From: a bacterium
GTDB taxonomy: Bacteria > Bacteroidota > Bacteroidia > B-17B0 > Aurantibacillaceae
Length of the DNA: 33,965 nt
Direction: 5' to 3'
Assembly: GCA_029945625.1 (NCBI GenBank)
Contig: JAQSCW010000019.1
Coordinates: 1-33,965, forward strand
Positions within the stretch are counted from its first letter, which is position 1; each line of letters begins with the position of its first letter. The notes beneath the pieces were generated by a model, which saw only the letters and a list, made by a program, of their open reading frames with translations, had not been told where the DNA came from and ran no database searches. This document shows, piece by piece, positions 1,209-33,965 of the stretch. A program made the translations under genes and the position numbers.

Positions 1209-1209
1209 G

Positions 1210-4766: not shown

Positions 4767-4781
4767 GGCTGTGGCTCCGTA

Positions 4782-5219
4782 TTATAGTTTTAAACAAGTC
4801 AACCCTTCTTTTAACCCCGTAGACATTTCAAACAAAGTAGTATCCTGCAACATGGTCTTGAGATCAGCTTTAATATGTTTGAATTTATGATGTACCGGAC
4901 AAGGATTTTTTTGTGAACACTCCCGTAAACCCAAAACGCAGGTTTTGTAGGTAAATCCCTCGTCGATAGCCAAAATAATCTCTTCCAAACGAATGCGGTT
5001 CATTTGTTTTAGTCCAATTTCAAAACCACCCATGGCTCCCTTTACCGAAGTTATAATGTTATTTCTCACCAATTGCTGAAGGATCTTGGCAGTAAAGGCT
5101 TCAGGCGAACCTATTTCTGCAGATATATCCTTTAAGCTCGCACGGTTGTCGTTGAGCGACTGCAGGGAGATGTAGATGGATGCCCTGATGCCGTATTCGC
5201 AAGCTTTCGAAAAAATCAT
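4782..5219 (-). CDS. Rrf2-family transcriptional regulator, probably Fe-S/NO-sensing (NsrR-like)
   Basis: 145-residue Rrf2 protein. The N-terminal winged helix starts MIFSKACEYGIRASIYI, with the wing region KGAMGGFEIG near 60-69. Three cysteines, C94, C101 and C107 (TCVLGLRECSQKNPCPVH), occupy the usual ligand loop of IscR/NsrR. Spacing is C-x6-C-x5-C, so an Fe-S cluster is plausible but not proven. It is followed by ric at 15 nt. A near-perfect palindrome (5252-5277) overlies its own promoter, and the same core recurs in front of the norCB operon at 11427, which argues that this protein is autoregulatory and a repressor of the nor operon. NsrR is favoured over IscR because of ric, nor and the absence of isc/suf genes. 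Confidence 0.88.
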   Translation of the reverse strand: MIFSKACEYGIRASIYISLQSLNDNRASLKDISAEIGSPEAFTAKILQQLVRNNIITSVKGAMGGFEIGLKQMNRIRLEEIILAIDEGFTYKTCVLGLRECSQKNPCPVHHKFKHIKADLKTMLQDTTLFEMSTGLKEGLTCLKL

Positions 5220-9129: not shown

Positions 9130-9539
9130 TTTTTTTCAATCATCCCGAGGGCATTAATAGTAAAGTTGCGAGGATCTGCGGAGCCGCTTTCATCAGTACT
9201 TCGCAGGAAATGAAGGAGATTTGTTTCTTCTTCCTCGGTTAAGTGAAAAGGGGGCATCAGTCCGGTCCCCGATTTCACCAAGGCTTTGATGTAAATGGGA
9301 CCTTTGCCTTTGCAGGAATATATATTGGTTAAATCAGGTCCCATATATCCCCCCAAACCATATAACTGATGGCAACTTTCGCAATTGTAGTCTTGCCATA
9401 CCAATCGTCCTTTCGATGCCAAAGTGGCGTTAGGTGCACTGTTTAGGTGTTTACGAATAGGCACCAGATAAATACTCAGGGAGTAGATGACAAAGGCAAC
9501 ACATAAGAGAGCAAATATAAGTTTCACCTTTATTTTCAT
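9126..9539 (-). CDS. norC: NorC-like membrane-anchored cytochrome c subunit
   Basis: 137 residues: one N-terminal transmembrane helix (about 5-26), then a mono-heme cytochrome c domain. The heme motif lies in the very typical NorC string NCESCHQLYGLGGYMGPDLT (residues 52-71); the axial Met is M95 in GLMPPFHL. It passes electrons from periplasmic cytochromes to the NorB-like subunit. It overlaps norB (ATGA) and follows the 605-residue gene at 29 nt. NorC looks fully conventional, in contrast to its NorB partner. Confidence 0.9.
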   Translation of the reverse strand: MKIKVKLIFALLCVAFVIYSLSIYLVPIRKHLNSAPNATLASKGRLVWQDYNCESCHQLYGLGGYMGPDLTNIYSCKGKGPIYIKALVKSGTGLMPPFHLTEEEETNLLHFLRSTDESGSADPRNFTINALGMIEKK

Positions 9540-11386: not shown

Positions 11387-11404
11387 GTGTTTGTTTTATA
11401 GAAG

Positions 11405-11445
11405 CAAAGGTACTCTAGTATAGTAATCGGACAAGTTTGTCCGAG
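11405..11445 (-). promoter_or_regulatory. Promoter and Rrf2-type operator of the 605-aa/norCB operon
   Basis: Minus-strand -7 element TACCTTTG at 11405-11412 and a TTG at 11432-11434 (19-nt gap) make a standard Bacteroidota promoter with a leader of about 14 nt. The perfect inverted repeat TCGGACAA, GT, TTGTCCGA (11427-11444) covers the -33 element, as expected for a repressor site. Same core as the operator at 5252-5277. Confidence 0.78.
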
Positions 11446-11462
11446 ATAATATTTGTCATTAT

Positions 11463-11486
11463 AAAACATGATAAATGTCATGTTTT
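11463..11486. promoter_or_regulatory. Crp/Fnr-type palindrome upstream of the nor operon
   Basis: Perfect 9-bp arms AAAACATGA (11463-11471) and TCATGTTTT (11478-11486) around a 6-nt spacer; the core is TGA-N6-TCA. It is centred about 75 bp upstream of the inferred start, further out than the other Crp/Fnr-type sites in the window, and upstream of the Rrf2-type operator. Confidence 0.6.
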
Positions 11487-11586
11487 GCTAAATATCCCTT
11501 GGTAGGACTTGACCAGAGAGGTGAATTGCTACCTACCGGTGCTTAGGCATGTTAACAACATTTAGGAGAGAAAATAGCGGAAGGCT

Positions 11587-12066
11587 CTACTTCACTTCCT
11601 CGAGGCTAAACATATATTCGAGGATGTTTCTGGCTTCGACATCCGATAGGTTCTGATTTGGCATCCGCACTAGACATAATTCGAGCATGGCTTGGGCTTC
11701 CTGATCTTTATCAATCATGGGATCAGGATTAGTGATGAAATTCATGATCCAAACCGGACTTCTCCTTTTTGTAACTCCATGCCAACCCGGCCCCACCAGT
11801 TTTTCGGTACTTGTTTTATGACAAGCAGAGCATTTAACTTCAGCAATCATTCTCCCAGATTCAGACCATTCTTTGTTCAAGGGGATGTTAAAGATCACGT
11901 TTTGCTCGTTCCATTTTCCTTCTCCGCGGTGAGGATCATAATTCTCTGTTTCTTTCACCATACTTTCTGCACTCATTGGCTTGGCGTTCTCTGCATCGTC
12001 CGCGTCTCCACAGGCTGTTAGCAGAATCAGAATCGTAATTGCAGAAAAGATAAAAACATGTTTCAT
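11587..12066 (-). CDS. Mono-heme cytochrome c lipoprotein (NosC-like)
   Basis: 159-residue lipoprotein: leader ending LLTAC (Cys 19), an acidic linker, then a class I cytochrome c domain with CSACH near residue 80, KLVGPGWHGV after it and the axial Met in LVRMPNQNLSD near 134. It should carry electrons in the periplasm. The GPGWHGVTKRRSPVWIM and CLVRMPNQNL strings resemble, from memory, cytochromes seen beside nosZ in Bacteroidota; that is a weak recollection, and no nos gene is in the window. It is the third gene after nadA and nadB on the same strand (53 nt gap) and may share the nadA promoter. Confidence 0.85.
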   Translation of the reverse strand: MKHVFIFSAITILILLTACGDADDAENAKPMSAESMVKETENYDPHRGEGKWNEQNVIFNIPLNKEWSESGRMIAEVKCSACHKTSTEKLVGPGWHGVTKRRSPVWIMNFITNPDPMIDKDQEAQAMLELCLVRMPNQNLSDVEARNILEYMFSLEEVK

Positions 12067-20900: not shown

Positions 20901-20953
20901 CCCCTGAAAAGAAACAACAAAATAAATTAATAATGAACCAAACAAAAATAATT

Positions 20954-21721
20954 ATGAAAACAAGATCAGCAACAAAACTCGTAACAGCCATCGTCGGCTT
21001 AACCGTTACGGCAATTGTCTTTATAAGCAGTTGCAAAAAAGACAACACTACTGAATTATTGGCGGCAACATCTACAACAGGCTCTGATGTGATTGATGCT
21101 AAAATCGGGGGCTTTCCTCCAACTACATACACTGTACCAGGAGCATGGAAAGTGGATAAAGTTCACAGTAACATCATGTGGGAAACTCAATACTATGGTA
21201 GCGGCGCAGCACTTACCGGAAGATTCAACAACTTCGAAATGAAAGTGTATTTCGATCAAGCTAATCCTGCAAATACTACCGTAAAAGCATGGGTACAACT
21301 TTCAACGTATAATACCGGCGAAACAGGAAGGGACGCTTATGGAAAATGTGGTCCTGGATATATGGGCGTGAAATGGGATACGCTCGCTAAAACTTCTCCA
21401 ACTGCCTATACACTCGCTCCAAAAGCAACTTCCGACACAGCCTGGTTTAACAGTACCGGTTGTGTAAAATATGGAAGTGGGTACATGCTCACAGGTACCT
21501 TCAAATTCCGTGGTGTTACCGAAACAATTTCTATGCCAATGTCTTATACCGGAAAAGGTACTGTGGTGAATGCTACCACCGGCAAGAAGACGGATAGGGT
21601 GGGATTATATGTGTCGTTTTCCATCAATGCGAACTCAGTTTATGGGGTTAACTCTACATCCATTAATGATAAAGTGCTGATCCGGGCCGACTGCAACATT
21701 GTTAACAATGCGCATGACTAA
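20954..21721 (+). CDS. YceI-family lipoprotein
   Basis: 255 residues. Leader MKTRSATKLVTAIVG ending ISSCKKD marks a lipoprotein. The rest is a YceI lipocalin-like barrel: WKVDKVHSNIMWET near 60, LTGRFNNFEMKVYFD, a central region, LTGTFKFRGVTETISMPM near 180 and VGLYVSFSINAN. YceI barrels bind long isoprenoid or amphiphilic ligands in the periplasm. A Cys pair (C128 and C162 or so) in an insertion GKCGPGYM...STGCVKYGSGYM is unusual for YceI and might bind a metal or heme or form a disulfide. An ATG at 20933 is an alternative start; 20954 is preferred since the gene at 25585 begins with nearly the same leader. Confidence 0.85.
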   Translation: MKTRSATKLVTAIVGLTVTAIVFISSCKKDNTTELLAATSTTGSDVIDAKIGGFPPTTYTVPGAWKVDKVHSNIMWETQYYGSGAALTGRFNNFEMKVYFDQANPANTTVKAWVQLSTYNTGETGRDAYGKCGPGYMGVKWDTLAKTSPTAYTLAPKATSDTAWFNSTGCVKYGSGYMLTGTFKFRGVTETISMPMSYTGKGTVVNATTGKKTDRVGLYVSFSINANSVYGVNSTSINDKVLIRADCNIVNNAHD

Positions 21722-21772: not shown

Positions 21773-22138
21773 ATGAAAACAATAAAAAATATAGCCCTAT
21801 TAGCAGTCGTGTTTCTCCTTGCATTTACGTCATGCAAAAAAACAAACGACTTCGGAGGTGCAGCAAAAATAAAAGGGATGGTAACGCTTAACGGTACGGC
21901 AGTTCCCAATGCATTTGTACATATTGCCTTTGGTACAACAGAAGCTACTACTTCGTACGATGCTAACGGATCAACTGACGCTAGCGGAAATTATGTATTC
22001 GGTGGCTTATTAAGAGGCGATTACTTTGTAACAGCTGATTACACAAACAGTACCGGCCAAAAATTTGTAAGCGGTGGTGCAAAAATCACCATTGGAGACA
22101 AAAAGGGTGAAGTGACTGCTGATTTGAAGTTAGAATAA
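21773..22138 (+). CDS. Carboxypeptidase-regulatory-like domain lipoprotein
   Basis: 121 residues. Lipoprotein leader ending AFTSCKK (Cys 21), then a single Ig-like CarboxypepD_reg fold: AAKIKGMVTLNGTAVPNAFVHI, SYDANGSTDASGNYVFGGLLRGDYFVTADY and a closing strand KGEVTADLKLE. Such domains act as surface or periplasmic binding/adaptor modules. It lies 51 nt after yceI on the same strand and is closed by a strong terminator, so yceI and this gene form a two-gene unit. Confidence 0.75.
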   Translation: MKTIKNIALLAVVFLLAFTSCKKTNDFGGAAKIKGMVTLNGTAVPNAFVHIAFGTTEATTSYDANGSTDASGNYVFGGLLRGDYFVTADYTNSTGQKFVSGGAKITIGDKKGEVTADLKLE

Positions 22139-22205: not shown

Positions 22206-22238
22206 AGAGTGATCTCTGAGGAGATCACTCTTTATTTT
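22206..22238 (+). terminator. Rho-independent terminator after the yceI unit
   Basis: Perfect 11-bp stem AGAGTGATCTC/GAGATCACTCT with a 4-nt TGAG loop, followed by TTATTTT. Confidence 0.9.
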
Positions 22239-22367: not shown

Positions 22368-23750
22368 ATGAGAATTATGAAACTTAATAGTAAAACGCTT
22401 TTTCTGGCGGGAGCTTTTTCACTGCTGCTTGCGGGATGTGAAAAGGGCTATTTCCCTAAACCCCCCGCACCACCGGCAGCAAAAGTGCCTTTGGAAACTA
22501 CTACCCTAGAAGCATCGTACGCCGCAAATGTGCCGGTGTCGTTAACAGATGCTTTCTGGAAGAATGCCGATTTTTTGCGAGTTGCAGTGAGTGACTTGAA
22601 TAAAGGATCTTTGTATTCTGACGGTTTTCTGAACATGACCGGTACTTACGGAGGACTGGCAACATTTAACAAGGGGGCCGACCCCAAGGTAGTGATGAAA
22701 GCCGCCTACACCGATACAAAATTATATGTGTACATGGAATGGCTGGATAGTGATATTAACCCGGCTTTTGCAACCGCCTCTCTGATTGCTGCTGCTGATC
22801 CCTTGAAGACGGACACAACCGGAGGCTGGACCTCCCAAGGAAATTGTGACCGCGTTGCACTTGCCTTCGATATTTCAAATGCCAGCAGCGCTGCAGGAAC
22901 TTTTGTGGACAAAGGATGTGCAGCGTCGTGTCACCTTAACAAAATGCAACCGGCTAGTGGATCTGTGGACATCTGGAGTTGGGATCTTGCAAATTCAGAT
23001 GCCTTGGGGTATGCCTCCGATCTTGTGACCAACAGCACGGCAGGCCTCATCAATGATGCCGGCCAAGGGATGTCCGCTTCCAATAAAAAAGTGAGTGGAA
23101 ATTCACGTTCCGAACCTGCGTATGAATGGGACGGCGCCGAACAAAGTTATGTGCGTGCCGTAGATGGAAAAACAGTAACACTGGACGCGGGCTATTTTTT
23201 ACTTAATAAAATTGCCTTTGTGGGAGATTTCAAAAAAGGGCAAGCGATCTTCAATAATCCAACTCTCGGTTCAGGATGTGCACACTGTCACGGTGAAAAT
23301 GGCGTGAACGGGGAAGCCACCTCTTTTGCCAATGTTTCTTTTGCCAGAAAATATTCGAGAGAATCTATGACGAGTACTGCTTTGCAGGATGGCCATGATG
23401 GAAAAAATTATTTTGCTCAGATATCTTTGGCTGACCGCGATCATTTGTTTGCATTTATCAGGGGAATTGGCGGCGTACCCGGCACCTATCTTACTGTTCC
23501 AAGTGGAAGCGCAGCCGATGTTTGGACCGTTTCTAATATGGCGCGTACCAAAATAGATGTGTCAAAAGCTCATACCTTGTATCAGGTACTAATGGTGCGC
23601 AATTTAACCAATGGTAATACCGATGATGTTCAATTTACCTCTCCTTCGGGAAAGGCTGTTCCTTTTGGAATTGCCCTCATGAATGGCGATGGCAAAAATC
23701 ACATTGGTTCATTAAAACAAATTCTCACTTTCAAATCTAAAACACCATGA
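22368..23750 (+). CDS. Ethylbenzene dehydrogenase heme-domain-like lipoprotein with inserted cytochrome c
   Basis: 460-residue lipoprotein (leader ending LLAGCEK, Cys 24). The outer parts resemble the EB_dh heme-b domain of dehydrogenase gamma subunits: VKAAYTDTKLYVYMEWLD near 110-127, NCDRVALAFDIS near 159 and, at the C-terminus, VPFGIALMNGDGKNHIGS. An atypical C-x3-CH motif (KGCAASCH, 184-189) sits in the first part. Residues about 287-370 form a cytochrome c domain with canonical GCAHCH (304-308). It may therefore bind one b-type and one or two c-type hemes. It overlaps the next gene (ATGA) and heads a cytochrome/barrel module repeated downstream. An ATG at 22377 is an equally good start. 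A tandem TAGTCAAC repeat precedes it (22344-22359). Confidence 0.7.
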   Translation: MRIMKLNSKTLFLAGAFSLLLAGCEKGYFPKPPAPPAAKVPLETTTLEASYAANVPVSLTDAFWKNADFLRVAVSDLNKGSLYSDGFLNMTGTYGGLATFNKGADPKVVMKAAYTDTKLYVYMEWLDSDINPAFATASLIAAADPLKTDTTGGWTSQGNCDRVALAFDISNASSAAGTFVDKGCAASCHLNKMQPASGSVDIWSWDLANSDALGYASDLVTNSTAGLINDAGQGMSASNKKVSGNSRSEPAYEWDGAEQSYVRAVDGKTVTLDAGYFLLNKIAFVGDFKKGQAIFNNPTLGSGCAHCHGENGVNGEATSFANVSFARKYSRESMTSTALQDGHDGKNYFAQISLADRDHLFAFIRGIGGVPGTYLTVPSGSAADVWTVSNMARTKIDVSKAHTLYQVLMVRNLTNGNTDDVQFTSPSGKAVPFGIALMNGDGKNHIGSLKQILTFKSKTP

Positions 23751-24115
23751 GAATAATTTCATTTCTTGTAATTGCACTCATTATTGCAATTCCATTTTCT
23801 TCTTGCGAGAAAGAATATTTTAAACCGGTTCAAGTAGATCCCAATGTTCCTGTAAGCTACAAAACTGATGTAGAACCCCTCTGGGCTGCAAAGTGCATGG
23901 GTAGTGGCTGCCATGGGGGCTCTGTGCCGCCAAACTTAAGTGTTGGAAAATCCTATGCATCTCTTATTGAGGGCTTGTATGTTGACACCCTTAATCCGGC
24001 AGCTTCTCTGCTGATGATTAAGTTAAATAAGGATATGCCCCCGGGAGGCTTGCTACCGCAGCCAGACCGTGATAAGGTACAAAACTGGATAAAACAAGGC
24101 GCTAAGGATAATTAA
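23747..24115 (+). CDS. Small lipoprotein with C-x4-CH heme-like motif
   Basis: 122 residues. Leader ending PFSSCEK (Cys 20), then SYKTDVEPLWAAKCMGSGCHGG, where the Cys pair is spaced C-x4-CH instead of C-x2-CH, and a late Met in DMPPGG that could be the axial ligand. The DVEPLWAAKC..SGCHG layout is a familiar pattern of Bacteroidota/Planctomycete cytochrome-like lipoproteins. It is coupled to the upstream EB_dh-like gene by a 4-nt overlap and has a close paralogue at 26990. Heme attachment through the longer spacing is likely but needs a test. Confidence 0.75.
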   Translation: MRIISFLVIALIIAIPFSSCEKEYFKPVQVDPNVPVSYKTDVEPLWAAKCMGSGCHGGSVPPNLSVGKSYASLIEGLYVDTLNPAASLLMIKLNKDMPPGGLLPQPDRDKVQNWIKQGAKDN

Positions 24116-24141
24116 AGGTAAATATTAAAATTTTATACACC

Positions 24142-25038
24142 ATGAAGAATCTCTTTATTACTATGAAACCACACATCATTAAAACAGCAGCATTAACACT
24201 CACTTTGTTTTGTTTACAAGCAACAATGCTAAATGGGCAGAATGATTCCGCAGCCGTTTCTGAGAAACCTGCAAAAGACAAACGACCGGTAAAGGACATG
24301 TTTGAAAGTGGCTATCTGATCAACAACCAAACAGCCATTATTCCCACCAAGCATACTTTTGAGTTTGTAATTCAGCATCGCTTTGGATTGCTAAATGCCG
24401 AAGGTTTTGATCTTGCGGGTTTATATGCGCCTTCAAATATCCGAATCGGATTTAATTACGTATTTACCAAAAATCTGGAAATTGGTTTTGGGACTACCAA
24501 AAACAACAAACTACAAGATCTAAATTGGAAATACGCGCTCCTAAAACAATCTCGATCCGGTAGCATGCCATTGAGTATTACCTACTACGGAAATGCTGTA
24601 ATTGATGTGAGAGAGGATATTTTTCCAAAAACGGTTGACCGCCTTTCCTATTTTCATCAGCTTATTTTTGCAAGGAAATTTAATAAGAGCATTTCCCTCC
24701 AAATTGCCCCTAGCTTATCACATTTTAACATGGTTGAAACAGGAATTATTCACGATAACATCGGAGTTTCCTTTAATGGTCGTGTGAAAATAAGTGATGC
24801 AGTTGCCATTACCTTTGAATATGATTATAACATAACGGCGCAAGACAAGGACCTTATCACGGTAATGCCAAATCTTGGTATTGGTATTGAAGCGGCTACC
24901 AGTAACCACGTGTTTCAGATTTTTGTGTGTAGTGGGCAGTCAATCATCAACCAATACAATGTATTGTATAATCAAAACGATTTCTTCAAAACAGAATTTT
25001 GCATCGGCTTTAATATGACCCGATTGTGGAATTTCTGA
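24142..25038 (+). CDS. DUF5777-like outer-membrane beta-barrel protein (copy 1)
   Basis: 298 residues. Signal peptide ending LNGQ, then a barrel with alternating aromatic strands and C-terminal FCIGFNMTRLWNF. Family-like signature: LINNQTAIIPTKHTFEFVIQ, HRFG, LAGLYAPSNIRIGFNYVF. An ATG at 24163 (MKPHIIK) is an alternative start. The paralogue at 27403 shares most signature positions. Position after two secreted heme-type lipoproteins suggests a partner in carrying electrons or a small ligand at the outer membrane, which is inference; DUF5777 has no assigned function that I know. Confidence 0.78.
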   Translation: MKNLFITMKPHIIKTAALTLTLFCLQATMLNGQNDSAAVSEKPAKDKRPVKDMFESGYLINNQTAIIPTKHTFEFVIQHRFGLLNAEGFDLAGLYAPSNIRIGFNYVFTKNLEIGFGTTKNNKLQDLNWKYALLKQSRSGSMPLSITYYGNAVIDVREDIFPKTVDRLSYFHQLIFARKFNKSISLQIAPSLSHFNMVETGIIHDNIGVSFNGRVKISDAVAITFEYDYNITAQDKDLITVMPNLGIGIEAATSNHVFQIFVCSGQSIINQYNVLYNQNDFFKTEFCIGFNMTRLWNF

Positions 25039-25095
25039 TCGTAGCTTATAAGTAAGCACTTCCTACGATCCAGATCAACAAGTTCGTAAAGAAAG

Positions 25096-25126
25096 ACAGG
25101 CAATAAAATTTGCCTGTTTTTTTTTG
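25096..25126 (+). terminator. Rho-independent terminator after module copy 1
   Basis: 8-bp stem ACAGGCAA/TTGCCTGT, 6-nt loop, then a run of eight T. Confidence 0.88.
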
Positions 25127-25497
25127 TGGAATCGCGAGGTTTAAGGAAAGTACTAAAAAAAAGAAAGAAGTGAGGAGAACCGATTTAGAATAGTAGAAAA
25201 TAAATCCGCTACCAGTAAATCTTCTACCGCCGGTTTTCATCGAGAAATTTATTTAGAATCATTATTTATTAGGTATGATTTTGATCAGAATTAACATCGT
25301 TTGCAAACGCCGAACTGCTATTATTTAGCAACGATTCCTAGCTATTTTATTTTTTTCTGAAAAAGGTTGCCCTTTTAAACCTATACAGCATTGGCACGCA
25401 GAAGGTATAGGTAAATCATTGATAAATAAACACAGTTTGCCGCAAAGACCCCATTTTATTTATTCACCGACCAACAAAATTACACTTCATGATAGTA
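25127..25497. other. Non-coding spacer between the two modules
   Basis: AT-rich, no convincing gene. It contains an 8-bp inverted repeat ACCTATAC/GTATAGGT (25379-25386 and 25405-25412) with an 18-nt loop, too far from the predicted promoter to be an obvious operator. Confidence 0.4.
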
Positions 25498-25540
25498 TGA
25501 CTTGTATCAGTACTGTAGGTGCCTGGCTGCTGTAATTTTG
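25498..25540 (+). promoter_or_regulatory. Crp/Fnr-type promoter of module copy 2
   Basis: TGACTTGTATCA (25498-25509) is centred exactly 36.5 bp upstream of the end of a perfect -7 element TAATTTTG (25533-25540). Leader of about 40 nt to the ATG at 25585. Confidence 0.62.
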
Positions 25541-25584
25541 TTCCGTTAAAAACAATTTGAATCACTAAAAAACTAAATAAAATT

Positions 25585-26949
25585 ATGAAAACTAGATCGG
25601 TAAAAACAGTTGTAACAGCCTTAACTGTAATGGGAGTTACAACCTTAATGTTTGTGGTCAGCTGTACCAAAACAAATCAAACACTCGACACGCCACCCGC
25701 TCAGGGACTTCCACCGGTAGTTACAAATCCGGCAGACCTGATTTGCGCCAAAGCGACATCTGCACCAATCATCGATGGAGTGGCAGATGCTGTTTGGGAC
25801 AATGCAACTAAATTAAACGCAACCACTCAGGTGCCCGATCCGGGCAATGGCATGTTTTACGGATACATTGGTACACAATACCCAATCACCCTTCGCTCTA
25901 TGTATGATGCAACTAATATTTATTTTTTGGCTGAATATCCCGATGCAGATAAAAGTGTTCAAGTATCCCCTTGGTATTTTAATCCTTCTACAAAACGTTG
26001 GGCACAGGAACCAAGTGCCAAAACATTTGATGTGAACGGAAATATTACCCGCGATGGATGGGGCGAAGACAAACTTTCCTTCTTATGGAACATCGATAAT
26101 TCGGTGGTAAAATTTGCCTCACAATCGTGTTATGCAACGTGTCATATATTTACGTCTTACCTTGATCCCACAACAACACCCGCTACCATGAAAGCGAATC
26201 AAAGTGCTAATCACTATACCAATGGTTCTAATGAAAAAATTGATATGTGGTGGCTAAAAATTGGAAGAGATCCTATTCATGGTCAATTCTCAGATGAGTA
26301 TCAAGACTGGGCTGGTGGACCTTCTATTACCAGTTTAGTGGGAGGAAGCGGCAATGGCCGTCACCAGGATGATCAGGTTGTGACAGGTTCTTCTACTTCC
26401 TATCCCTATGGTCCCGCTTATTCTTCAAATGTAACCGGCGAAGGAACCAGAAATAACTCTCAAACCTTTACGTTAACAGTTTCAGGAAAAACTACCACCG
26501 CAACTGCTCCAAAATACATTATTCCCGGAAAATCCGACTACTATTATATACTTGAAACCGACATTACTAGCGGCGTAGCCCTAACTGTTACCGGCTTGGA
26601 TACACTTGGTAAATTAACTTTAAGTAACGCATCAGTAATCGATCCTAACATAGGTACCGATTATCAGCGAGTGGGCGATGCAGTATATGGAGGCGGTGGT
26701 CCTAAAATCATTCCAAGTTACATTTCTGCACCACTCAAAAACAACCGTGCCGACATAAGCTGCCAAGTAAGTTATACCGGCACAAGTTGGATCATTGAAT
26801 GGAAACGTGCCTTAAAAACTGCTGATACAAAAAGACAGGACGTTGACTTTTCAAGTCTTCAGGATCAACCCTTTGGTGTGGCGATATTTAATAAGTCGAA
26901 CTACCAGCATGGTATCAAACCAAACCTGACCTTGAAATTCCAAAAGTAA
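25585..26949 (+). CDS. Ethylbenzene dehydrogenase heme-domain-like lipoprotein with C-x3-CH motif
   Basis: 454 residues. Lipoprotein leader MKTRSVKTVVTALTV ending FVVSCTK (Cys 27), close to the leader of the YceI protein. Body features of EB_dh-type heme b domains: APIIDGVADAVWDNAT near 60-75, LRSMYDATNIYFLAEYPD near 103-120, WGEDKLSFLWNID near 159, and the C-terminal DQPFGVAIFNKSNYQHG near 430. SCYATCH at 181-187 is C-x3-CH, matching the motif position in the protein at 22368, but this copy lacks the inserted canonical cytochrome c domain and instead has a Ser/Thr/Gly-rich middle. Followed by C-x4-CH lipoprotein and barrel genes: second copy of the module. Confidence 0.72.
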   Translation: MKTRSVKTVVTALTVMGVTTLMFVVSCTKTNQTLDTPPAQGLPPVVTNPADLICAKATSAPIIDGVADAVWDNATKLNATTQVPDPGNGMFYGYIGTQYPITLRSMYDATNIYFLAEYPDADKSVQVSPWYFNPSTKRWAQEPSAKTFDVNGNITRDGWGEDKLSFLWNIDNSVVKFASQSCYATCHIFTSYLDPTTTPATMKANQSANHYTNGSNEKIDMWWLKIGRDPIHGQFSDEYQDWAGGPSITSLVGGSGNGRHQDDQVVTGSSTSYPYGPAYSSNVTGEGTRNNSQTFTLTVSGKTTTATAPKYIIPGKSDYYYILETDITSGVALTVTGLDTLGKLTLSNASVIDPNIGTDYQRVGDAVYGGGGPKIIPSYISAPLKNNRADISCQVSYTGTSWIIEWKRALKTADTKRQDVDFSSLQDQPFGVAIFNKSNYQHGIKPNLTLKFQK

Positions 26950-26989
26950 CACAAACAGGAACTATTCATTGATTTAATATTTTGAAATC

Positions 26990-27391
26990 ATGACACTAAA
27001 AAAAATTGTAATACTTATGGCCGCACTAACGGTGCCCATAATTGGCTTACAAAGTTGTTATAAGGTTGCCACGGTGCCAAAAAGCGCAGAGGTAGAAGTT
27101 ATAACAGCACCTGTGAGTTATGCCACTGACCTCCAGCCCTTATTTACTGCAAATTGCAGCATGAGCGGATGTCATAGTACGGGGGGAAAAGTTCCTGATC
27201 TGACTGTTGGTAAATCCTATAACGCGCTCATAAACGGGAATTATATTAATACCGCAGATCCTGAGAACAGTAACCTTTATCTCTGGCTAATCGGTAAAAA
27301 AGGTACACCCATGCCACCCGGCGCGGTGAATCCCGGAAACATCAATAACCTTACCCTGGCATGGATCCAGCAAGGAGCACTAAACAATTAA
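26990..27391 (+). CDS. Small lipoprotein with C-x4-CH heme-like motif (copy 2)
   Basis: 133 residues. Leader ending GLQSCYK (Cys 23), then SYATDLQPLFTANCSMSGCHS with C-x4-CH and a late MPPGAV Met. Aligns throughout with the product at 23747 (shared SY.TD..PL...C..SGCH, LTVGKSYNALI.G.Y, MPPG, WIQQGA). It lies 40 nt after the EB_dh-like gene and 11 nt before the barrel gene. Confidence 0.75.
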   Translation: MTLKKIVILMAALTVPIIGLQSCYKVATVPKSAEVEVITAPVSYATDLQPLFTANCSMSGCHSTGGKVPDLTVGKSYNALINGNYINTADPENSNLYLWLIGKKGTPMPPGAVNPGNINNLTLAWIQQGALNN

Positions 27392-27402
27392 AAAAAAATA
27401 GT

Positions 27403-28308
27403 ATGAAAAATAATATAAAACAACAACTAACTCATCGGTTTCCGCCGCTTGCCCTGTTGGTACTTTTTCTGGCCTTAGGGAATCTGTTGAATGCGCAAGA
27501 CAGCACTGCTACTGAAGGAAAGAAGGAGTATGCAAAGAAAACCTTTATTGGCAATTTGATCATCGATAACCAAACGTGTATGGTGCCGGTAAAAGGCGTA
27601 TTTGAATTTGTAATCCAACATCGTTTTGGGACCATGGAAAATGGGTATGAAGACTTTGCCGGCTTGTACGCATCTTCAAACATTCGCCTCGGGTTTAATT
27701 ACACGCCAATCGAAAATCTGCAAGTGGGCTTTGGTTTTACCAAAGAACAAATGATGTGGGATGCAAACATCAAGTACGCCCTTGTTAAACAGGGTAAATC
27801 GGGGGGCTCTCCTGTGAGCGTGACCTATTTCGGGTTGATGGGCATTGATACCCGACCGAAAGAAGGCAACTTTGTGGAAGATGTGGATCGTTTGTCGTAC
27901 TTCCACCAATTGATACTGGCCCGTAAGGTGACCAAAGATCTGTCCATTCAGGTGGCGCCAAGTTTTTCGTGGTATAACAATGTAGAAGGATACGTAAGCA
28001 CAGATGGAAGCATTAAGCCGACAATGAACAATGGGCATTTGGCCATCGCTTTCATGGGGTGTTATGCGTTAAGTGATAAGTTTTCGATCATCGTAAATTA
28101 CGATCAGCCGCTCACCGAACATACCACTAACAATCCTGATCCTAATATCAGCTTTGGATTTCAGGTAGGCACCAGCTCACACACCTTTCAGTTATTTGTA
28201 GGAAATTACCACAGTATTGTTCCTCAAATGAATAATTTTTACAATCACAACAATTACAAAGATGGCGCAAGTGCATTTTTGATTGGATTTAATATTACCA
28301 AACGATAA
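27403..28308 (+). CDS. DUF5777-like outer-membrane beta-barrel protein (copy 2)
   Basis: 301 residues from the ATG at 27403 (MKNNIKQQL), chosen because an upstream in-frame ATG at 27361 lies inside the preceding gene. Signal peptide ends LLNAQ. The signature IIDNQTCMVPVKGVFEFVIQ, HRFG, FAGLYASSNIRLGFNYTP matches the copy at 24142, as do the DRLSYFHQLI.ARK and SLQ(I/V)APS blocks. C-terminal strand ends FLIGFNITKR. Probable outer-membrane location. Confidence 0.8.
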   Translation: MKNNIKQQLTHRFPPLALLVLFLALGNLLNAQDSTATEGKKEYAKKTFIGNLIIDNQTCMVPVKGVFEFVIQHRFGTMENGYEDFAGLYASSNIRLGFNYTPIENLQVGFGFTKEQMMWDANIKYALVKQGKSGGSPVSVTYFGLMGIDTRPKEGNFVEDVDRLSYFHQLILARKVTKDLSIQVAPSFSWYNNVEGYVSTDGSIKPTMNNGHLAIAFMGCYALSDKFSIIVNYDQPLTEHTTNNPDPNISFGFQVGTSSHTFQLFVGNYHSIVPQMNNFYNHNNYKDGASAFLIGFNITKR

Positions 28309-28336
28309 GGCGGTAATGCTCTGGATTGTTATAAAG

Positions 28337-28371
28337 CTTCACCTCTTGAAAATAGAGGTGAAGTTTTTTTT
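28337..28371 (+). terminator. Rho-independent terminator after module copy 2
   Basis: 10-bp stem CTTCACCTCT/AGAGGTGAAG followed by eight T. Confidence 0.9.
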
Positions 28372-28480
28372 GAACGCTAATTTTCGATTACCAATACACC
28401 ATCAATCATTACTAAATGAATTGCCGACACCGAGCCTCTTTGAATAGCAATTTTTTGGGCATTTTTTGTTTTTTTTTTGA

Positions 28481-28579: not shown

Positions 28580-28885
28580 ATGTCACAAAAATCAGAAGAA
28601 AAGGACAAGAAGGAAACGCCTAAATCCGGAAGGAGAGGCTTTCTTAAATTAGGATTACTTGCTGCGGGATTAACCGCGGTGGGAGGTGGCCTACAAGAAG
28701 CATTATCAGAGGAGAAGATCACTGCAAAAAGCGATGGAGGAGAGAAGATGAAAATGCTCACCCCTGATGGTAAATTGGTGGAAATTGACAAGTCTCTCTT
28801 CGATAAACTCTCTACCAAGAAGAAAGCAAGCAATTCGGAAATTTATCAGTGGATGAATAATCCTTCTAAAGACAATAATATTTAA
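28580..28885 (+). CDS. Small twin-arginine signal protein
   Basis: 101 residues, no known family. A charged N-region leads to GRRGFLKLGLLAAG (RR at 18-19), a good Tat motif with hydrophobic stretch to about residue 38. The short mature part holds KMLTPDGKLVEID (58-70), which closely matches KLLSPEGEIVEVD in the next protein, so the two N-terminal regions look paralogous. No cofactor motif. Only 3 nt separate it from the Fe-S gene. It may be a Tat escort or a small structural subunit; both are guesses. Confidence 0.7.
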   Translation: MSQKSEEKDKKETPKSGRRGFLKLGLLAAGLTAVGGGLQEALSEEKITAKSDGGEKMKMLTPDGKLVEIDKSLFDKLSTKKKASNSEIYQWMNNPSKDNNI

Positions 28886-28888
28886 GTT

Positions 28889-29857
28889 ATGAAGCCAGAA
28901 GAAAAATTAAAAGACAACAGCAGGCTGGAATTTTTAAAAACCGCTGCCATTGCTACAGTAGGCACTTTAGCCTGTGGAAGTTTGGTGTGTTCCTGTTCAA
29001 AAAAGGAAGCTCCAAAAAGCCAAAAAGTGAAGCTGCTTTCCCCCGAAGGGGAAATTGTGGAAGTGGATTCAGACTACCTTAATCATCAAGAGCACATGGC
29101 TATTATTTCCAAATTGGAAGCCCGTGAGGGTATTGCCGGTAAGAAATTCGTGATGGTGGTGGATTTGTCGCGCTGCAAAAATGCACGTAAATGTGTAAAC
29201 GCATGTCAGAAGTGGCACTATCGCGGCGAAGACACCGAATGGTTGACGGTAAAATTAATGAAAGACAGTGAGAAAGGCGCGCCGTATTGGTTCCCTAAAC
29301 AGTGTTTTCATTGCGATAATCCTCCATGCGTGAAGGTTTGCCCGGTTGATGCCACCTACAAAAGAGATGATGGGTTGGTGTTAATTGACAACGAAAGATG
29401 TATTGGTTGCAAATTCTGTATGGCAGCTTGTCCTTATTCCACAAGGGTGTTTAATTGGGATGAGCCTGAAATTCCTGATTACATCCAGGGCCAACCATAC
29501 TCTGCAGAAACCGGTATTCCGGCAAAAATAGGAACTGTTGAAAAATGCGATTTCTGTCCCGACAGAAGCAGAGAAGGCCTACTACCTCCGTGTGTAGAAG
29601 CTTGCCCAAATGGCGTATTTTATTTTGGTGATGAAAATGAAGACACCGTGACCAATGGTGATGAAACAGTTAGTTTCACACAATTGATCAAAGATGGTGG
29701 CGCTTACCGTTTTCAGGAAGAATTGGGTACCAAGCCACGCGTTTACTACTTGCCGCCAAAAAACCGTCAATTCCCTGTGGAAAGAGGATACGAAGCATTG
29801 CCTGATAAATTGAAGGACAGATTCAGAGATGTAATGGAAGGTAGTGGTGAAATTTAA
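28889..29857 (+). CDS. NrfC/PsrB-like ferredoxin subunit with four cluster motifs
   Basis: 322 residues. Four Cys groups of a DMSO reductase B/NrfC-type protein: C96, C102, C106; C139, C142, C147, C151; C171, C174, C177, C181; C220, C223, C235, C239. The first group lacks the usual second Cys (Ala99 in CKNARKC), so one cluster may be [3Fe-4S] or otherwise ligated. The N-terminus NSRLEFLKTAAIA resembles a Tat signal but has RL rather than RR, and a lipobox-like VCSCSKK follows. It should pass electrons between the NrfD-like quinol module and periplasmic cytochrome c. No molybdopterin subunit is present. Confidence 0.88.
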   Translation: MKPEEKLKDNSRLEFLKTAAIATVGTLACGSLVCSCSKKEAPKSQKVKLLSPEGEIVEVDSDYLNHQEHMAIISKLEAREGIAGKKFVMVVDLSRCKNARKCVNACQKWHYRGEDTEWLTVKLMKDSEKGAPYWFPKQCFHCDNPPCVKVCPVDATYKRDDGLVLIDNERCIGCKFCMAACPYSTRVFNWDEPEIPDYIQGQPYSAETGIPAKIGTVEKCDFCPDRSREGLLPPCVEACPNGVFYFGDENEDTVTNGDETVSFTQLIKDGGAYRFQEELGTKPRVYYLPPKNRQFPVERGYEALPDKLKDRFRDVMEGSGEI

Positions 29858-29898: not shown

Positions 29899-31254
29899 AT
29901 GGAACTAAATAAATATCAACAGGAGCTCTTTGACAAGCAACGCCCGACCGTTGAAAAATTTGGGGCAAAGACATGGATGTGGTCATTGTTTTTCTTGGCA
30001 TGGATCGGACTTGGTGGCTACGCTCTGTATTTGCAGATAGCCGTAGGTCACACGGTGACAGGGATGCGAGATAATGTGGTATGGGGGCTATACATCGCCA
30101 ATTTTATTTTCTTTATTGGGATTAGTTATGCCGGAGCCGTAATATCGGGAATCCTTCATATTTTGAAAGTAGAATGGCGAAAACCAATTATACGAATCGC
30201 AGAAATGATCACCGTAATTTCTACTATCATCGGTCCAATTTTTATTCTGCTTTGTATAGGCCGACTCGACCGATTGCATCATTTATTTTTATATCCCCGT
30301 TTGCAGTCTCCCATTACTTGGGACGTGTTTGCTATTGGAACGTATTTTGCGGGAAGTGTGATTTTTCTTTACCTCGCACTCATTAAGGACTTTGCTATTT
30401 TACGCGATGCCAAGTTAAATGTTCCAAAATGGAAACAACATTTATATAAATTTTTAGCGATAGGTTACCGTGGTACAAAAGGACAAAATCGTCATATTAA
30501 TATTTCCACCAACCTCATGGCCATCATGATTGTGCCCCTTGCCATTATTGTACACTCCGTATTGTCGTGGATTTTCGGTATGACCTTAAGACCGGGCTGG
30601 CACAGCACCATTTTTGGACCTTACTTTGTTCTTGCGGCAATTTATTCAGGAACTGGGGTTTTGATTATGGCCATGTGGGTGTACCGTAAAATGTACAAAC
30701 TCTATGACTATATCACTGATCAACATTTTGTGTATTTAGGCTACATCATGATGGTTCTGGGAGCAGGCTATGGCTATTTTACTTTTTCGGAATACCTAAC
30801 CGATTGGTTTGCTTCCGAAAAATGGGTGAGTGAAGTACTTGAAAAAATGTTTAATCCCGCAAAATACGGATGGTATTTCTTATACTCTAACGTCTTTGGA
30901 ATTCTAATTCCGGTGTTGGTTGTCGCCATTCCTTTTACCAGAAAGCCGGGTATTATTGCCCTTGCCTCAACCTTTATGGTGCTGGCATTATGGATCAAAA
31001 GGTACCTCATCATTGTACCTACTCTTGAATCTCCATTATTGCCAATGCAAGATACCCGCATGGAATACGTTAAATATTCTGCAACTTGGGTTGAATGGGC
31101 ACTTACTCTGGCAGGCGTGGCCACTTTCTTTTTGTTCTTCACCATCATGTCTAAAATTGTTCCCATTGTTCCCATATCTGAATTTGGTGATAAGGAAAAA
31201 AACCCGGAAGCGCCAACTGATGCAACTAAAGAAAATAATTCAAATCCTGTTTAA
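29899..31254 (+). CDS. NrfD/HmeB-like polytopic quinol-interacting membrane subunit
   Basis: 451 residues with about ten transmembrane segments. An N-terminal stretch of about 25 residues precedes helix 1 (WMWSLFFLAWIGLGGYALY). The NVVWGLYIANFIFFIGISYAG block near 59-79 and GPIFILLCIGRLDRLHHLF near 112-130 are typical of NrfD/PsrC proteins that exchange electrons and protons with quinones. Long C-terminal acidic tail. It follows the Fe-S gene by 41 nt, the usual NrfCD order. Closest known relatives by architecture are HmeB/ActC-type subunits; direction of electron flow (quinol to cytochrome c) is inferred. Confidence 0.9.
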   Translation: MELNKYQQELFDKQRPTVEKFGAKTWMWSLFFLAWIGLGGYALYLQIAVGHTVTGMRDNVVWGLYIANFIFFIGISYAGAVISGILHILKVEWRKPIIRIAEMITVISTIIGPIFILLCIGRLDRLHHLFLYPRLQSPITWDVFAIGTYFAGSVIFLYLALIKDFAILRDAKLNVPKWKQHLYKFLAIGYRGTKGQNRHINISTNLMAIMIVPLAIIVHSVLSWIFGMTLRPGWHSTIFGPYFVLAAIYSGTGVLIMAMWVYRKMYKLYDYITDQHFVYLGYIMMVLGAGYGYFTFSEYLTDWFASEKWVSEVLEKMFNPAKYGWYFLYSNVFGILIPVLVVAIPFTRKPGIIALASTFMVLALWIKRYLIIVPTLESPLLPMQDTRMEYVKYSATWVEWALTLAGVATFFLFFTIMSKIVPIVPISEFGDKEKNPEAPTDATKENNSNPV

Positions 31255-31264
31255 AATAAGAAAT

Positions 31265-32200
31265 ATGAAACGAATTTTGACCGTAGCTATAGATAGGAAA
31301 TCCATTTCAAAATTAATGGTTTCTGCTGCAATCCTTATTGCCGCCATGAGTCCCGGCAGTTTTTTTGCTCAGGGAGACTCAACCAAAACTAAAAGTGACG
31401 CCAAAGAAGAACCAACAACAGTTTCTCCGTCACTTGAATTTTATACTGTACAAAAAGGCAATAATACCATCGATTTAAGAGCTCGCCTCCAAGGGAAAGT
31501 AAATGGCGCCAATAAAAAGTTACCGCATTTGAAAGTAAATTTTATGTCGGTGAACGGGGATGAGGAAAAACTTTTGGGTTTTGGGATCACCGATGTAAAC
31601 GGAAAAGCAGTTTGTAATCTAAAAAGCGAACTCGTACCTACAGATGAAAAAGGCAATGTGAACTTAAAGGCAATTTATGCCGGTACTAAACTTGTTGAAG
31701 GAGCTGAGGAAGAATTGACCATCCGTAAGGCGCGACTTGAAATAACTCCTGTAACGGGCGACACGGTGTATTCGGTGAAAGTAAAATTAGTCGACGTGTC
31801 AACCGGAACTGTGACTCCTGTGCCTGAAACCGCACTGGGTATTTTTGTTCACCGGTATTTTAATCCTTTAAAAGTGGCTGAAGCAACCACTGACGAAAGT
31901 GGTGAAGGCACAGCCGTTGTACCATTTGAATTACCGGGAGACAAGGAAGGAAACATCGAGATCTTAGTGAAATTAGATGAGCACGAATTGTACGGCTTTA
32001 TGGAATCTTCTGTAACTCAAAAATGGGGTATTCCGCTTGAAGATCAATTAAGAAGAACTTCCAGAGCACTTTGGACGGCTCACCCTCCTTTATGGATGCT
32101 GATAACATTTATTATTCTGATAACGTTGGTATGGGGTCACTATATCGTGATCATTTGGGAATTGTTCAGATTACGAAAAGAAGAACCGCACATTAACTAA
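31265..32200 (+). CDS. Secreted Ig-like protein with C-terminal membrane anchor (a)
   Basis: 311 residues from the ATG at 31265; earlier in-frame starts lie inside the NrfD gene. N-terminal signal (KLMVSAAILIAAM...FFAQ), two beta-sandwich-like repeats (about 55-150 with GFGITDVNGKAVCNL, and 155-240 with AEATTDESGEGTAVVPF) and a C-terminal transmembrane helix (MLITFIILITLVWGHYIVIIW) with a basic tail. I know no family name. Same layout as the next product, so a duplicated pair. Probably a periplasmic accessory or scaffold subunit of the NrfCD-like complex. Confidence 0.75.
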   Translation: MKRILTVAIDRKSISKLMVSAAILIAAMSPGSFFAQGDSTKTKSDAKEEPTTVSPSLEFYTVQKGNNTIDLRARLQGKVNGANKKLPHLKVNFMSVNGDEEKLLGFGITDVNGKAVCNLKSELVPTDEKGNVNLKAIYAGTKLVEGAEEELTIRKARLEITPVTGDTVYSVKVKLVDVSTGTVTPVPETALGIFVHRYFNPLKVAEATTDESGEGTAVVPFELPGDKEGNIEILVKLDEHELYGFMESSVTQKWGIPLEDQLRRTSRALWTAHPPLWMLITFIILITLVWGHYIVIIWELFRLRKEEPHIN

Positions 32201-32266: not shown

Positions 32267-33157
32267 ATGCCATTAATTTTTACATATTTGCCAAGTAGAA
32301 AGTCTTTCTTCTTTTGGGTCGCGTTTGGAATTTTTTTCACCGGCCACTCCCAAACTCATGGAAGTGCTGTTGCCGGTACTAATAAGATTACTCCCACCCT
32401 TACCGTAAATTATAGGATCACCAATGGTGAAAAAGGGATCACCGTGGGGGTTACAAGAATGGAAGGGGAGAAGGTGGTTCCCGTTACCAACCTAATAGTG
32501 AACCTGTACCTTACCCAGCACAAAAAATATGATCCCGCTACAGGCGAAGGGTGGATAGGCAATCACGTGACCGATCAAAGTGGTCACGTCTATTTTTCAC
32601 TTCCCGTAAAAGTGCTGAAGTTGAAAGAAAATAGTCATACCTTTTTTTTCATAGCCAGCATCGGTTCTGATCCCATATTTAAAGACACGCACGACAGCAT
32701 TACGATGGCCGATGCCTCAATAGAATTGTTCTCCGGTGAAACAGCGGCTAATACAAGAGTGGTAGCTAAATTTTCAAAGAGTGAGGAAAATGGCGTGGTG
32801 GCAATCCCTCAAAAGGAAATAAAGTTCTTTGTAAAAAGGGGAGCTGAAGAAATTCCGTTTGGCAGGGAAAATCGACTTACCGACATGGAAGGGGTGGTGA
32901 GTGAGATTCTGCCGGAGGATATCTTTGGAAATGAGAATAATACAATTACCGTTTTAGCCCGATTTGAAGATAAGGAGAACCACGGCATTATTGAAGTTAG
33001 CCGCGATATTCCTTGGAAGGCTCCTAAAGGAGGATCTAACGCCGTTAATCAGAAACTTTGGTCCGGCATTCGAAATGCACCGGTGGCTTTGGTAATCGCT
33101 TTGGCAATGGTGTTAATTATGCTAATATTTTTCGTTCGGGCAAAAAAGAAACAGTAA
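32267..33157 (+). CDS. Secreted Ig-like protein with C-terminal membrane anchor (b)
   Basis: 296 residues. N-terminal signal-like hydrophobic segment (FFFWVAFGIFFTG), two beta-sandwich-like domains (NHVTDQSGHVYFSLPV near 103, ENRLTDMEGVVSEILPE near 203), then IPWKAPKGG and a C-terminal helix VALVIALAMVLIMLIFFV with RAKKKQ. Shares domain order, the (T/V)D..G.....(L/V)P repeat feature and anchor with the preceding gene product but little plain identity. No cofactor-binding motif. Unknown function; operon position suggests a partner of the membrane complex. Confidence 0.75.
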   Translation: MPLIFTYLPSRKSFFFWVAFGIFFTGHSQTHGSAVAGTNKITPTLTVNYRITNGEKGITVGVTRMEGEKVVPVTNLIVNLYLTQHKKYDPATGEGWIGNHVTDQSGHVYFSLPVKVLKLKENSHTFFFIASIGSDPIFKDTHDSITMADASIELFSGETAANTRVVAKFSKSEENGVVAIPQKEIKFFVKRGAEEIPFGRENRLTDMEGVVSEILPEDIFGNENNTITVLARFEDKENHGIIEVSRDIPWKAPKGGSNAVNQKLWSGIRNAPVALVIALAMVLIMLIFFVRAKKKQ

Positions 33158-33208: not shown

Positions 33209-33649
33209 ATGAAGCTTATGAAAACCTTATCAAACAGAAAATTTCTAGTAGTGGGATCCATGATGTTTATTTTTGCATTGATCACCATGTCATTCAGCGT
33301 CAAATTTCAAGATGCGAAGAAAAAACCATGGAACGCACCGGATGCGGCAAAAAAAGCAAAGAATCCTGTTGCAAAAAATGATGAAAGTGTTGCTGCGGGT
33401 AAAGCCTTGTACATGAAACACTGCAAATCTTGTCATGGCTCCAAAGGCCTAGGTGATGGACCAAAATCTAAAGAATTAGACACAGCTTGTGGCGACTTTA
33501 GCGCAAAAGAAACCACCGACCAAACCGATGGAGAATTGTTTTATAAAACAAAAGAAGGAAGAGATGATATGCCGTCTTTCAAGAAAAAAATCACCGATGA
33601 CGAGGAAATCTGGAGTATCATTAATTTTATGCGCACACTCGCTAAATAG
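33209..33649 (+). CDS. Mono-heme cytochrome c
   Basis: 146 residues. Signal/anchor helix (FLVVGSMMFIFALITMSFSV), Lys-rich linker, then a class I cytochrome c domain: GKALYMKHCKSCHGSKGLGDG (heme at about 79-83) and an axial Met in DDMPSFKKKI near 128. Last gene of the operon, ending just before a strong terminator, so it is the likely periplasmic electron acceptor of the NrfCD-like complex. The ATG at 33218 is an alternative start. Confidence 0.88.
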   Translation: MKLMKTLSNRKFLVVGSMMFIFALITMSFSVKFQDAKKKPWNAPDAAKKAKNPVAKNDESVAAGKALYMKHCKSCHGSKGLGDGPKSKELDTACGDFSAKETTDQTDGELFYKTKEGRDDMPSFKKKITDDEEIWSIINFMRTLAK

Positions 33650-33677
33650 TATTTTAAAACAGTCTTTTTAATAGTAG

Positions 33678-33717
33678 ATCTCTGAAGTAATTTAATTTAC
33701 TTCAGAGATTTTTTTTA
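33678..33717 (+). terminator. Rho-independent terminator ending the NrfCD-like operon
   Basis: Perfect 13-bp stem ATCTCTGAAGTAA/TTACTTCAGAGAT, 6-nt loop, then eight T. Confidence 0.93.
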
Positions 33718-33942: not shown

Positions 33943-33965
33943 CGGGAATTGTTTTGGAAAGTTTT

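Follow-up and report, generated by a model that had tools for sequence, protein, structure and literature searches.

The question raised by this locus is what function is served by a set of three genes, encoding an EB_dh-type lipoprotein, a small lipoprotein with a CX4CH motif and a DUF5777 outer-membrane barrel, that is present twice in a Bacteroidota genome. The DNA analyzed, referred to as the window, is one complete contig (C19, GenBank JAQSCW010000019.1, 33,965 bases) of the 4.1 Mb genome of a member of the Aurantibacillaceae. As in the preliminary description of this DNA, open reading frames (ORFs), together with Pfam matches for the first and third genes, place the three genes in the same order at 22368-25038 (module 1) and 25585-28308 (module 2). 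With a probability of roughly 0.55, we consider each module to be an outer-membrane-anchored, probably periplasm-facing redox module that consists of carriers only, is tied to the quinone pool and includes a narrow channel. The features of the two modules are as follows.

22368..23750, + strand: module 1 lipoprotein of the EB_dh type, with a CX3CH motif (CAASCH) and a CXXCH cytochrome domain as an insert
23747..24115, + strand: module 1 small CX4CH cytochrome-type lipoprotein, its start overlapping the EB_dh stop (ATGA)
24142..25038, + strand: module 1 DUF5777 outer-membrane barrel (PF19089, 9.7e-72)
25085..25128, + strand: terminator-type hairpin after module 1 (z -6.9)
25585..26949, + strand: module 2 lipoprotein of the EB_dh type (CX3CH motif, 26128-26145; invariant distal His442, 26908-26910)
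26990..27391, + strand: module 2 small CX4CH cytochrome-type lipoprotein (motif at 27155-27175, conserved Met108)
27403..28308, + strand: module 2 outer-membrane barrel of the DUF5777 family (automatic ORF start at 27361; PF19089, 3.7e-70)
28328..28376, + strand: terminator-type hairpin after module 2 (z -6.7)

Apart from the ATGA overlap in module 1, the remaining module genes are separated by short gaps, and the module 2 DUF5777 gene more likely starts at the ATG at 27403 than at 27361.

The first gene of both modules matches EB_dh (PF09459; 4.3e-15 and 3.2e-19, 56.8 and 70.3 bits against a gathering threshold of 33.3). Both proteins also carry a CX3CH motif, a point absent from the preliminary description; PMC5566968 counts CX3CH and CX4CH among the heme-binding motifs. 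EB_dh proteins with CX3CH, defined by the presence of the motif and not by its position, are referred to as class B, and those without it as class A. In an alignment of 11 class A and 113 class B sequences (106 distinct), all 11 class A proteins share one Met and one Lys, which we take to be the heme b ligands, and 2ivf_C and 7b04_C have both residue types in the same positions or next to them. The Lys has been replaced throughout the 113 class B sequences and the Met in 103 of 113, the Met being kept in nine of the ten sequences with an extra CXXCH and in one of the 103 others. The residues C182, C186 and H187 of CX3CH are aligned column for column in all 113 class B sequences, and H442 is invariant in the same 113. 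As a pair, the Met and Lys ligands of the gamma subunits of type II dimethyl sulfoxide (DMSO) reductases are, by this alignment, absent from class B.

The AlphaFold model of the module 2 EB_dh protein, with a mean confidence score (pLDDT) of 85, matches the folds of the NxrC (7b04) and EbdC (2ivf_C) subunits. The module proteins thus share their Pfam family and predicted fold with the type II DMSO-reductase-family gamma subunits, but they differ in being lipoproteins, in the loss of the Lys and mostly of the Met, in the presence of CX3CH and the distal His, and in their surroundings, since no molybdopterin family was found among the window genes scanned on this contig, which ends at 33965. We infer that class B EB_dh proteins hold a covalent heme between His187 and His442, with Met instead in module 1, and the best reading of the alignment is that the EB_dh fold changed from a non-covalent to a covalent heme protein. 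The resulting series (Met/Lys; CX3CH with Met and His; CX3CH with His) would be a readable case of a change in heme type and ligands. Concerning the extra cytochrome c domain ascribed earlier to copy 1, the Pfam match is weak (PF13442, 19.9 bits with a cut-off of 27), while the CXXCH itself is common to eight modules of the same type, the window's included. Class A copies mostly adjoin a gene for a protein of ~1160 amino acids (aa) and an iron-sulfur (Fe-S) gene, surroundings that look like a molybdoenzyme operon, possibly of the nitrite/nitrate type, as judged from the gene size and the Fe-S neighbor; this neighborhood was seen for most of the EB_dh genes without CX3CH at L059 and L063-L071.

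The second gene encodes a small protein with a lipid-anchor Cys in 101 of 101 homologs, CX4CH in 100 (CX2CH in the remaining one) and Met108 in 98%. The motif together with the conserved distal Met points to a mono-heme cytochrome c of the His/Met type. The window CX4CH proteins reach no Pfam family, their NCBIfam matches are far below the cut-offs, and a search of the PDB sequences with a window protein gave chance-like matches only (best E-value 0.24). A likeness to planctomycete-type cytochrome c (PSCyt1, PF07635) is provided by a two-motif member of the CX4CH family (L200, 396 aa), which passes the cut-off of that family, whereas the window proteins do not. The L200 protein belongs to a recurrent unit, also seen at L211, L215, L216, L220, L224 and L230 (and at L210 and L212), composed of a two-CX4CH protein of 396-429 aa, a CX4CH protein of 207 aa, a YceI-type protein (184-214 aa) and DUF5777; this unit directly adjoins an EB_dh module, on the opposite strand in L212.

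In L203 (Flavobacterium sp. SUN052), a Rieske gene (1942-2388) lies between EB_dh and DUF5777 in place of the CX4CH gene, and in L194 (Fibrella rubiginis; by its length, L077 represents this contig too) a Rieske gene (11360-11809) follows EB_dh, with no DUF5777 there. Since the CX4CH cytochrome gives way to a Rieske protein at one locus or more, we argue that this slot is an electron-transfer position. A Rieske motif search over 183 sequences gave seven ORFs, none of them more than 4 kb away from DUF5777 or EB_dh, a nearness that is partly built in by the sampling; the Rieske-like proteins of L101, L118, L147 and L151 are known by motif alone, and a CX4CH-family gene is present at L101 too. 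The pairing of EB_dh-type and Rieske proteins at L203 and L194 recalls archaeal CbsA/SoxL, in which we take CbsA to be of the EB_dh type; Sulfolobus acidocaldarius, used as a control, matches the EB_dh profile, and the outer-membrane barrel of the module loci marks the difference. The cbsAB/soxNL genes are described in PMC5461723.

The conservation of the unit was assessed in two surveys, one of 296 genomes of the phylum with profiles for DUF5777 and EB_dh, and one of 395 genomes of the window's class for EB_dh. EB_dh was detected in 35 of the 395 class genomes, and stretches around it were collected at 37 places inside the class and three outside (two of the latter, L093 and L094, gave no match to purpose-built EB_dh models). 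These survey loci overlap, by at least six contigs of equal length, with a set of named loci obtained by a pattern search as the best 80 of 100 relatives. By these genes, the genome has its relatives among Bacteroidota, of which Flavobacterium sp. SUN052, Niastella vici and Emticicia aquatica carry related loci. Partners were sought in six frames within 2.5 kb downstream of EB_dh copies with 2.3 kb of room, which left 73 of 84 class B copies from the named loci (11 cut off), 26 of 30 from the survey (four cut off) and 11 of 13 class A copies; an ORF-based count, in which the CX4CH gene followed 59 of 74 EB_dh copies, was blinded by longer overlapping ORFs. Both a CX4CH-family gene and DUF5777 followed class B EB_dh in 71 of the 73 named and 21 of the 26 survey copies, whereas all 11 class A copies had neither partner (0/11 with both). 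The class B copies without the full set are L194 and L203 (DUF5777 present in the latter, with the Rieske gene between), L057, L060, L062, in which barrel and cytochrome lie upstream instead, L077 and L092, which is from outside the class.

Across the phylum, DUF5777 occurs in 115 and EB_dh in 20 of the 296 genomes, with both in 10. The preliminary description had considered that the families might be found mostly apart, and this is true of DUF5777 and EB_dh as whole families but not of the CX3CH-type EB_dh. In the window's class, seven of seven EB_dh matches (six genomes) have DUF5777 within 0.7 kb downstream on the same strand, while outside the class 14 genomes have EB_dh, four of them also DUF5777 (G030, G116, G183, G208), adjacent in none. 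A profile of CX3CH-type EB_dh gave strong matches in the same six class genomes and a moderate one in G208 (1.1e-12); all further matches were weak and partial. The survey of co-occurrence proposed earlier thus yielded a conserved unit of heme-type lipoproteins and barrel, often accompanied by a Fe-S/NrfD pair. In the window, this pair and a soluble cytochrome c follow module 2.

28889..29857, + strand: 4Fe-4S protein, closest to DsrO (PF13247, 2.1e-25; NF045797, 183.9 of 200 bits)
29899..31254, + strand: NrfD-type membrane protein (PF03916, 3.2e-31; DsrP-like, 84.4 of 350 bits)
33209..33649, + strand: mono-heme cytochrome c (CKSCH; PF13442, 1.1e-12; PF00034, 3.8e-12)

The Fe-S and NrfD genes are of the same kind as the DsrO/DsrP and NrfC/NrfD pairs, but their products are below the DsrO and DsrP cut-offs and the genes adjoin those of outer-membrane lipoproteins. 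For comparison, 62 EB_dh-free DUF5777 units were assembled, 60 from stretches picked among ~150 places, leaving out those already collected with EB_dh, and two from this genome. A Fe-S/NrfD pair on the same strand was present at 67 of the 80 named EB_dh loci (flanks of up to 10 kb, many ending at contig ends) vs. two of the 62 EB_dh-free units (flanks of ~8 kb). The genome also has two matches to the cytochrome c assembly family PF01578, which we count in favor of the redox module.

The two modules had been described as a tandem duplication with diverged copies. Divergence is evident, with identities within the window of only 20% (EB_dh), 39% (CX4CH) and 44% (DUF5777). However, window module 1 shares 60-61, 50 and 67-69% identity, respectively, with module 1 of L155 and L156, and window module 2 shares 76-78, 61-70 and 67-72% with their module 2. 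Since module 1 is nearer to module 1 of these loci than to its neighbor, a recent tandem duplication is rejected, and the modules are ancient paralogs. The tree agrees: in a FastTree phylogeny of 117 sequences rooted with class A, the eight module-1 EB_dh proteins form a clade with a support of 0.998 and 96 others a clade with 0.894, L084 (CXXCH elsewhere) standing beside the 96-member clade and L092 (no CXXCH) beside the module-1 clade (0.843). The order of the modules in L156 and L158/L082 is as in the window and is reversed in L155. Both modules occur together in three of the 80 named loci, and the stretches L083 and L087 have module 1 but not module 2. The two modules are old, separately conserved versions and probably serve different partners. 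The distances between module members are correlated (Mantel r of 0.71, 0.77 and 0.82, p 0.001; 94 of 100 full modules, repeats removed). On one 18 kb contig (L079, G600 C20), two divergent module-1 clusters were found, each with Fe-S and NrfD genes nearby.

As noted before, a terminator-type element closes each module, in the form of a stable hairpin with a T run (-20.4 kcal/mol at 25085-25128 and -20.3 kcal/mol at 28328-28376; none of 200 shuffles was equally stable). A scan for a terminator consensus gave 14 sites vs. 14.2 in shuffles and listed neither closing hairpin on the + strand, possibly since part of the T run is paired in the stems.

The third gene of both modules matches DUF5777 (PF19089; 241.6 and 236.4 bits against a gathering threshold of 23.1); no paper naming this family was found in the literature searched, which misses most subscription papers. 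The AlphaFold2 model of the module 2 protein (69 sequences; pLDDT 90, predicted TM-score 0.81) suggests a barrel with ~12 membrane strands, as counted from the listed strands with two three-residue ones excluded. In Foldseek, NanC has the best E-value and KdgM the best target coverage (TM-score 0.71), followed by FapF, OmpG, COG4313, FadL and OmpF, the wider barrels OmpG, OmpF and FadL having lower TM-scores. Conserved polar residues (for example D120, K124, S139, T141, D149, Q169, K175, Q183, N248, Q263 and N297) tend to alternate along the strands, a pattern that a polar lumen would be expected to show. None of 193 DUF5777 ORFs contains a heme motif (C-x2-4-CH; some contigs are represented twice).

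These features are compatible with a function of DUF5777 as an uptake or export channel for one solute, in which cytochromes, Rieske proteins or YceI would act on the solute in the periplasm or maintain its redox state there, and EB_dh and YceI would be binding proteins unrelated to respiration. In addition to the alternating polar residues and the neighbors NanC and KdgM, both of them solute channels, the relationship of the EB_dh fold to CBM9 suits this explanation. So do the EB_dh-free units, which have a YceI gene within 2.5 kb in 52 and a CX4CH-family gene in 47 of 62 cases (either in 58; neither at L104, L105, L106 and L143), compared with 25 and 21, respectively, of 1802 background positions taken from these stretches at a distance of over 4.5 kb from either DUF5777 or EB_dh; for three units YceI was confirmed by Pfam. 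What the EB_dh-free units have in common is a barrel accompanied by a small electron carrier and by a third secreted protein that varies. However, the Fe-S/NrfD pair tracks the EB_dh version, which suits respiration better, and we consider a solute channel of this kind unlikely.

The preliminary description had likened the genes to a porin-cytochrome conduit, though from families not known for that role. An electron conduit of the MtrAB or Cyc2 type, in which the barrel would sheathe or dock the cytochromes and electrons would cross the membrane via hemes to an extracellular donor or acceptor, is improbable. The carriers-only set with an outer-membrane barrel, a pair of the quinone oxidoreductase type and a cytochrome c would suit it, and a genome in which a profile search gave no MtrB_PioB match would need a substitute if it respired outside. 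MtrAB, MtoAB and PioAB likewise have a barrel gene beside cytochromes c, and Cyc2 joins a mono-heme cytochrome to a barrel. Against these similarities, the strand numbers given in PMC10654088 are ~17 for Cyc2 and 26 for PioB, MtoB and MtrB, and a barrel of ~12 predicted strands looks too narrow to enclose a cytochrome. The best-covered folds are KdgM and NanC, and the small partner is a mono-heme lipoprotein encoded by a separate gene rather than an embedded multiheme cytochrome, as in MtrAB and its relatives, or a fused domain, as in Cyc2. A split Cyc2 with the small cytochrome as barrel plug was also considered and was dropped after the 12-strand prediction and the lack of fusions among the 193 ORFs.

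Topology bears on the same point. According to PMC5080379, the surface signal C-X-K-(D/E)2 is that of Capnocytophaga, while Bacteroides and Flavobacterium have different signals. K-(D/E)2 at positions +3 to +5 was found in five of 58 EB_dh proteins, which a conduit would welcome, and in none of 101 CX4CH proteins, with the reservation that this consensus from other genera may not be that of the present lineage; at least two acidic residues between +2 and +6 were found in seven of 58 and six of 101, respectively. As the Capnocytophaga-type signal is nearly absent, most copies probably face the periplasm, although the signals vary by genus. The notion that two respiratory operons and a barrel merely lie together by chance and were duplicated in this lineage would suit the listed relatives without EB_dh and the four genomes outside the class with non-adjacent genes, but it is extremely improbable given the partner counts of class B and class A, the low background of CX4CH-family genes and the old orthologous modules side by side in other genomes, and is already contradicted by conservation.

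We therefore return to the carriers-only redox module, in which each module would be an electron-transfer unit at the outer membrane. The two lipoproteins, an EB_dh protein with covalent heme and a CX4CH cytochrome c, would be anchored to the outer membrane, most likely at its periplasmic face, and the 12-strand DUF5777 barrel beside them would form a narrow channel (or a scaffold). Electrons would be exchanged with the quinone pool by the membrane-bound NrfD protein together with the Fe-S protein, and carried over the periplasm by the soluble cytochrome c. The EB_dh and CX4CH proteins might then give electrons to, or take them from, a small redox-active solute let through the barrel or an unlinked partner; as no catalytic subunit was recognized in the cluster, the endpoint lies elsewhere. 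The direction can be guessed as outward from quinol, by analogy with NrfCD.

Several points weigh against this reading. It is built on sequence for gene order, conservation, heme motifs, the lost Met/Lys pair and the Fe-S/NrfD linkage, and on a predicted structure for the size of the barrel; the attachment and ligands of the hemes, the topology, the path and direction of the electrons and the part played by the barrel are inferred from these. The co-variation of the members is also expected from shared operon inheritance and does not favor the reading exclusively. CX3CH is not independent evidence within class B, which is defined by this motif, and some doubt attaches to the loss of the Lys ligand, which is read from the alignment, since 40 of 113 class B proteins have a Lys within six residues after His442. 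Class B EB_dh occurs without the barrel at L057, L060, L077/L194 and L092, and 15 of the 62 EB_dh-free DUF5777 units have no CX4CH-family gene within 2.5 kb. DUF5777 is mostly found without EB_dh and often with YceI and a small cytochrome, so its role may have little to do with EB_dh. Finally, EB_dh was not found in the 10 same-genus and four same-family genomes listed, and the distribution is consequently patchy, with the module dispensable there.

A wider generalization can be offered tentatively, and we hold it to be doubtful: DUF5777 barrels, combined with a one-electron carrier that can be exchanged (CX4CH, CX2CH or Rieske) and with a third lipoprotein that varies (EB_dh or YceI), may be redox gates of the outer membrane, forming a class that is widespread in Bacteroidota and undescribed, in one branch of which EB_dh would have gone from Met/Lys b-type heme to c-type heme with a distal His, module 1 being a Met-keeping intermediate. 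Should the DUF5777 unit indeed transfer electrons at this membrane, a quinone-linked outer-membrane redox route would be present in many Bacteroidota of fresh water and soil; no papers on such a route in this phylum were found in the literature searched, with the limited coverage mentioned above.

The modules are flanked by further genes on the same strand, as listed below.

20933..21721, + strand: YceI-family lipoprotein upstream of module 1 (PF04264, 3.7e-15)
21773..22138, + strand: small lipoprotein (121 aa) with a carboxypeptidase-regulatory-like fold (PF13620, 27.5 bits, below the cut-off of 32.3)
22206..22231, + strand: terminator-like hairpin preceding module 1 (-16.8 kcal/mol)
28580..28885, + strand: 101-aa protein with a twin-arginine-type start (SGRRGFLKLG), no Pfam match
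31265..32200, + strand: protein with a C-terminal membrane segment, weakly Ig-like (Big_1, 0.015, below cut-off; start codon picked by eye)
32267..33157, + strand: second protein with a C-terminal membrane segment, similar by eye to the product of 31265..32200, no Pfam match
33676..33711, + strand: terminator-type hairpin after the cytochrome c gene, from folding (contig end 33965)

A YceI-type gene stands at the same position before module 1 in L082, L083, L087, L155, L156 and L158 (L082 and L158 are one contig, judging by length), and so does a gene for a protein of 121-135 aa, the L155 and L156 versions of which are alike by eye. The counterpart of the 101-aa twin-arginine-type protein in L231 matches TAT_signal below the cut-off (0.0057). 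By eye, this protein and the N-terminus of the Fe-S protein have a segment in common, K-x-L-[TS]-P-[DE]-G...VE-[IV]-D, which is also found in L231 (13614-13901).

In the left part of the window, a ScdA-type protein with a Rrf2-type regulator is encoded at 4029-5219 (- strand), and a COX1-family gene adjoining that of a small cytochrome c lies at 7741-9539 (- strand), which suggests nitric-oxide handling or a terminal oxidase; despite the COX1-family, ScdA-type and Rrf2-type genes, no link of the modules to nitrogen oxides was found in this analysis. At 156-1944 (- strand), an MbnP gene overlaps a di-heme CCP_MauG gene, forming an MbnH-like pair. The two window copies are the only EB_dh matches in the genome, which has four DUF5777 genes. 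Of the two outside the window, the one on contig C10 adjoins a gene for a 194-aa protein that is YceI-like by eye, and next to the one on contig C15 is a gene for a lipoprotein that bears a CX4CH motif and a CXXCH motif.

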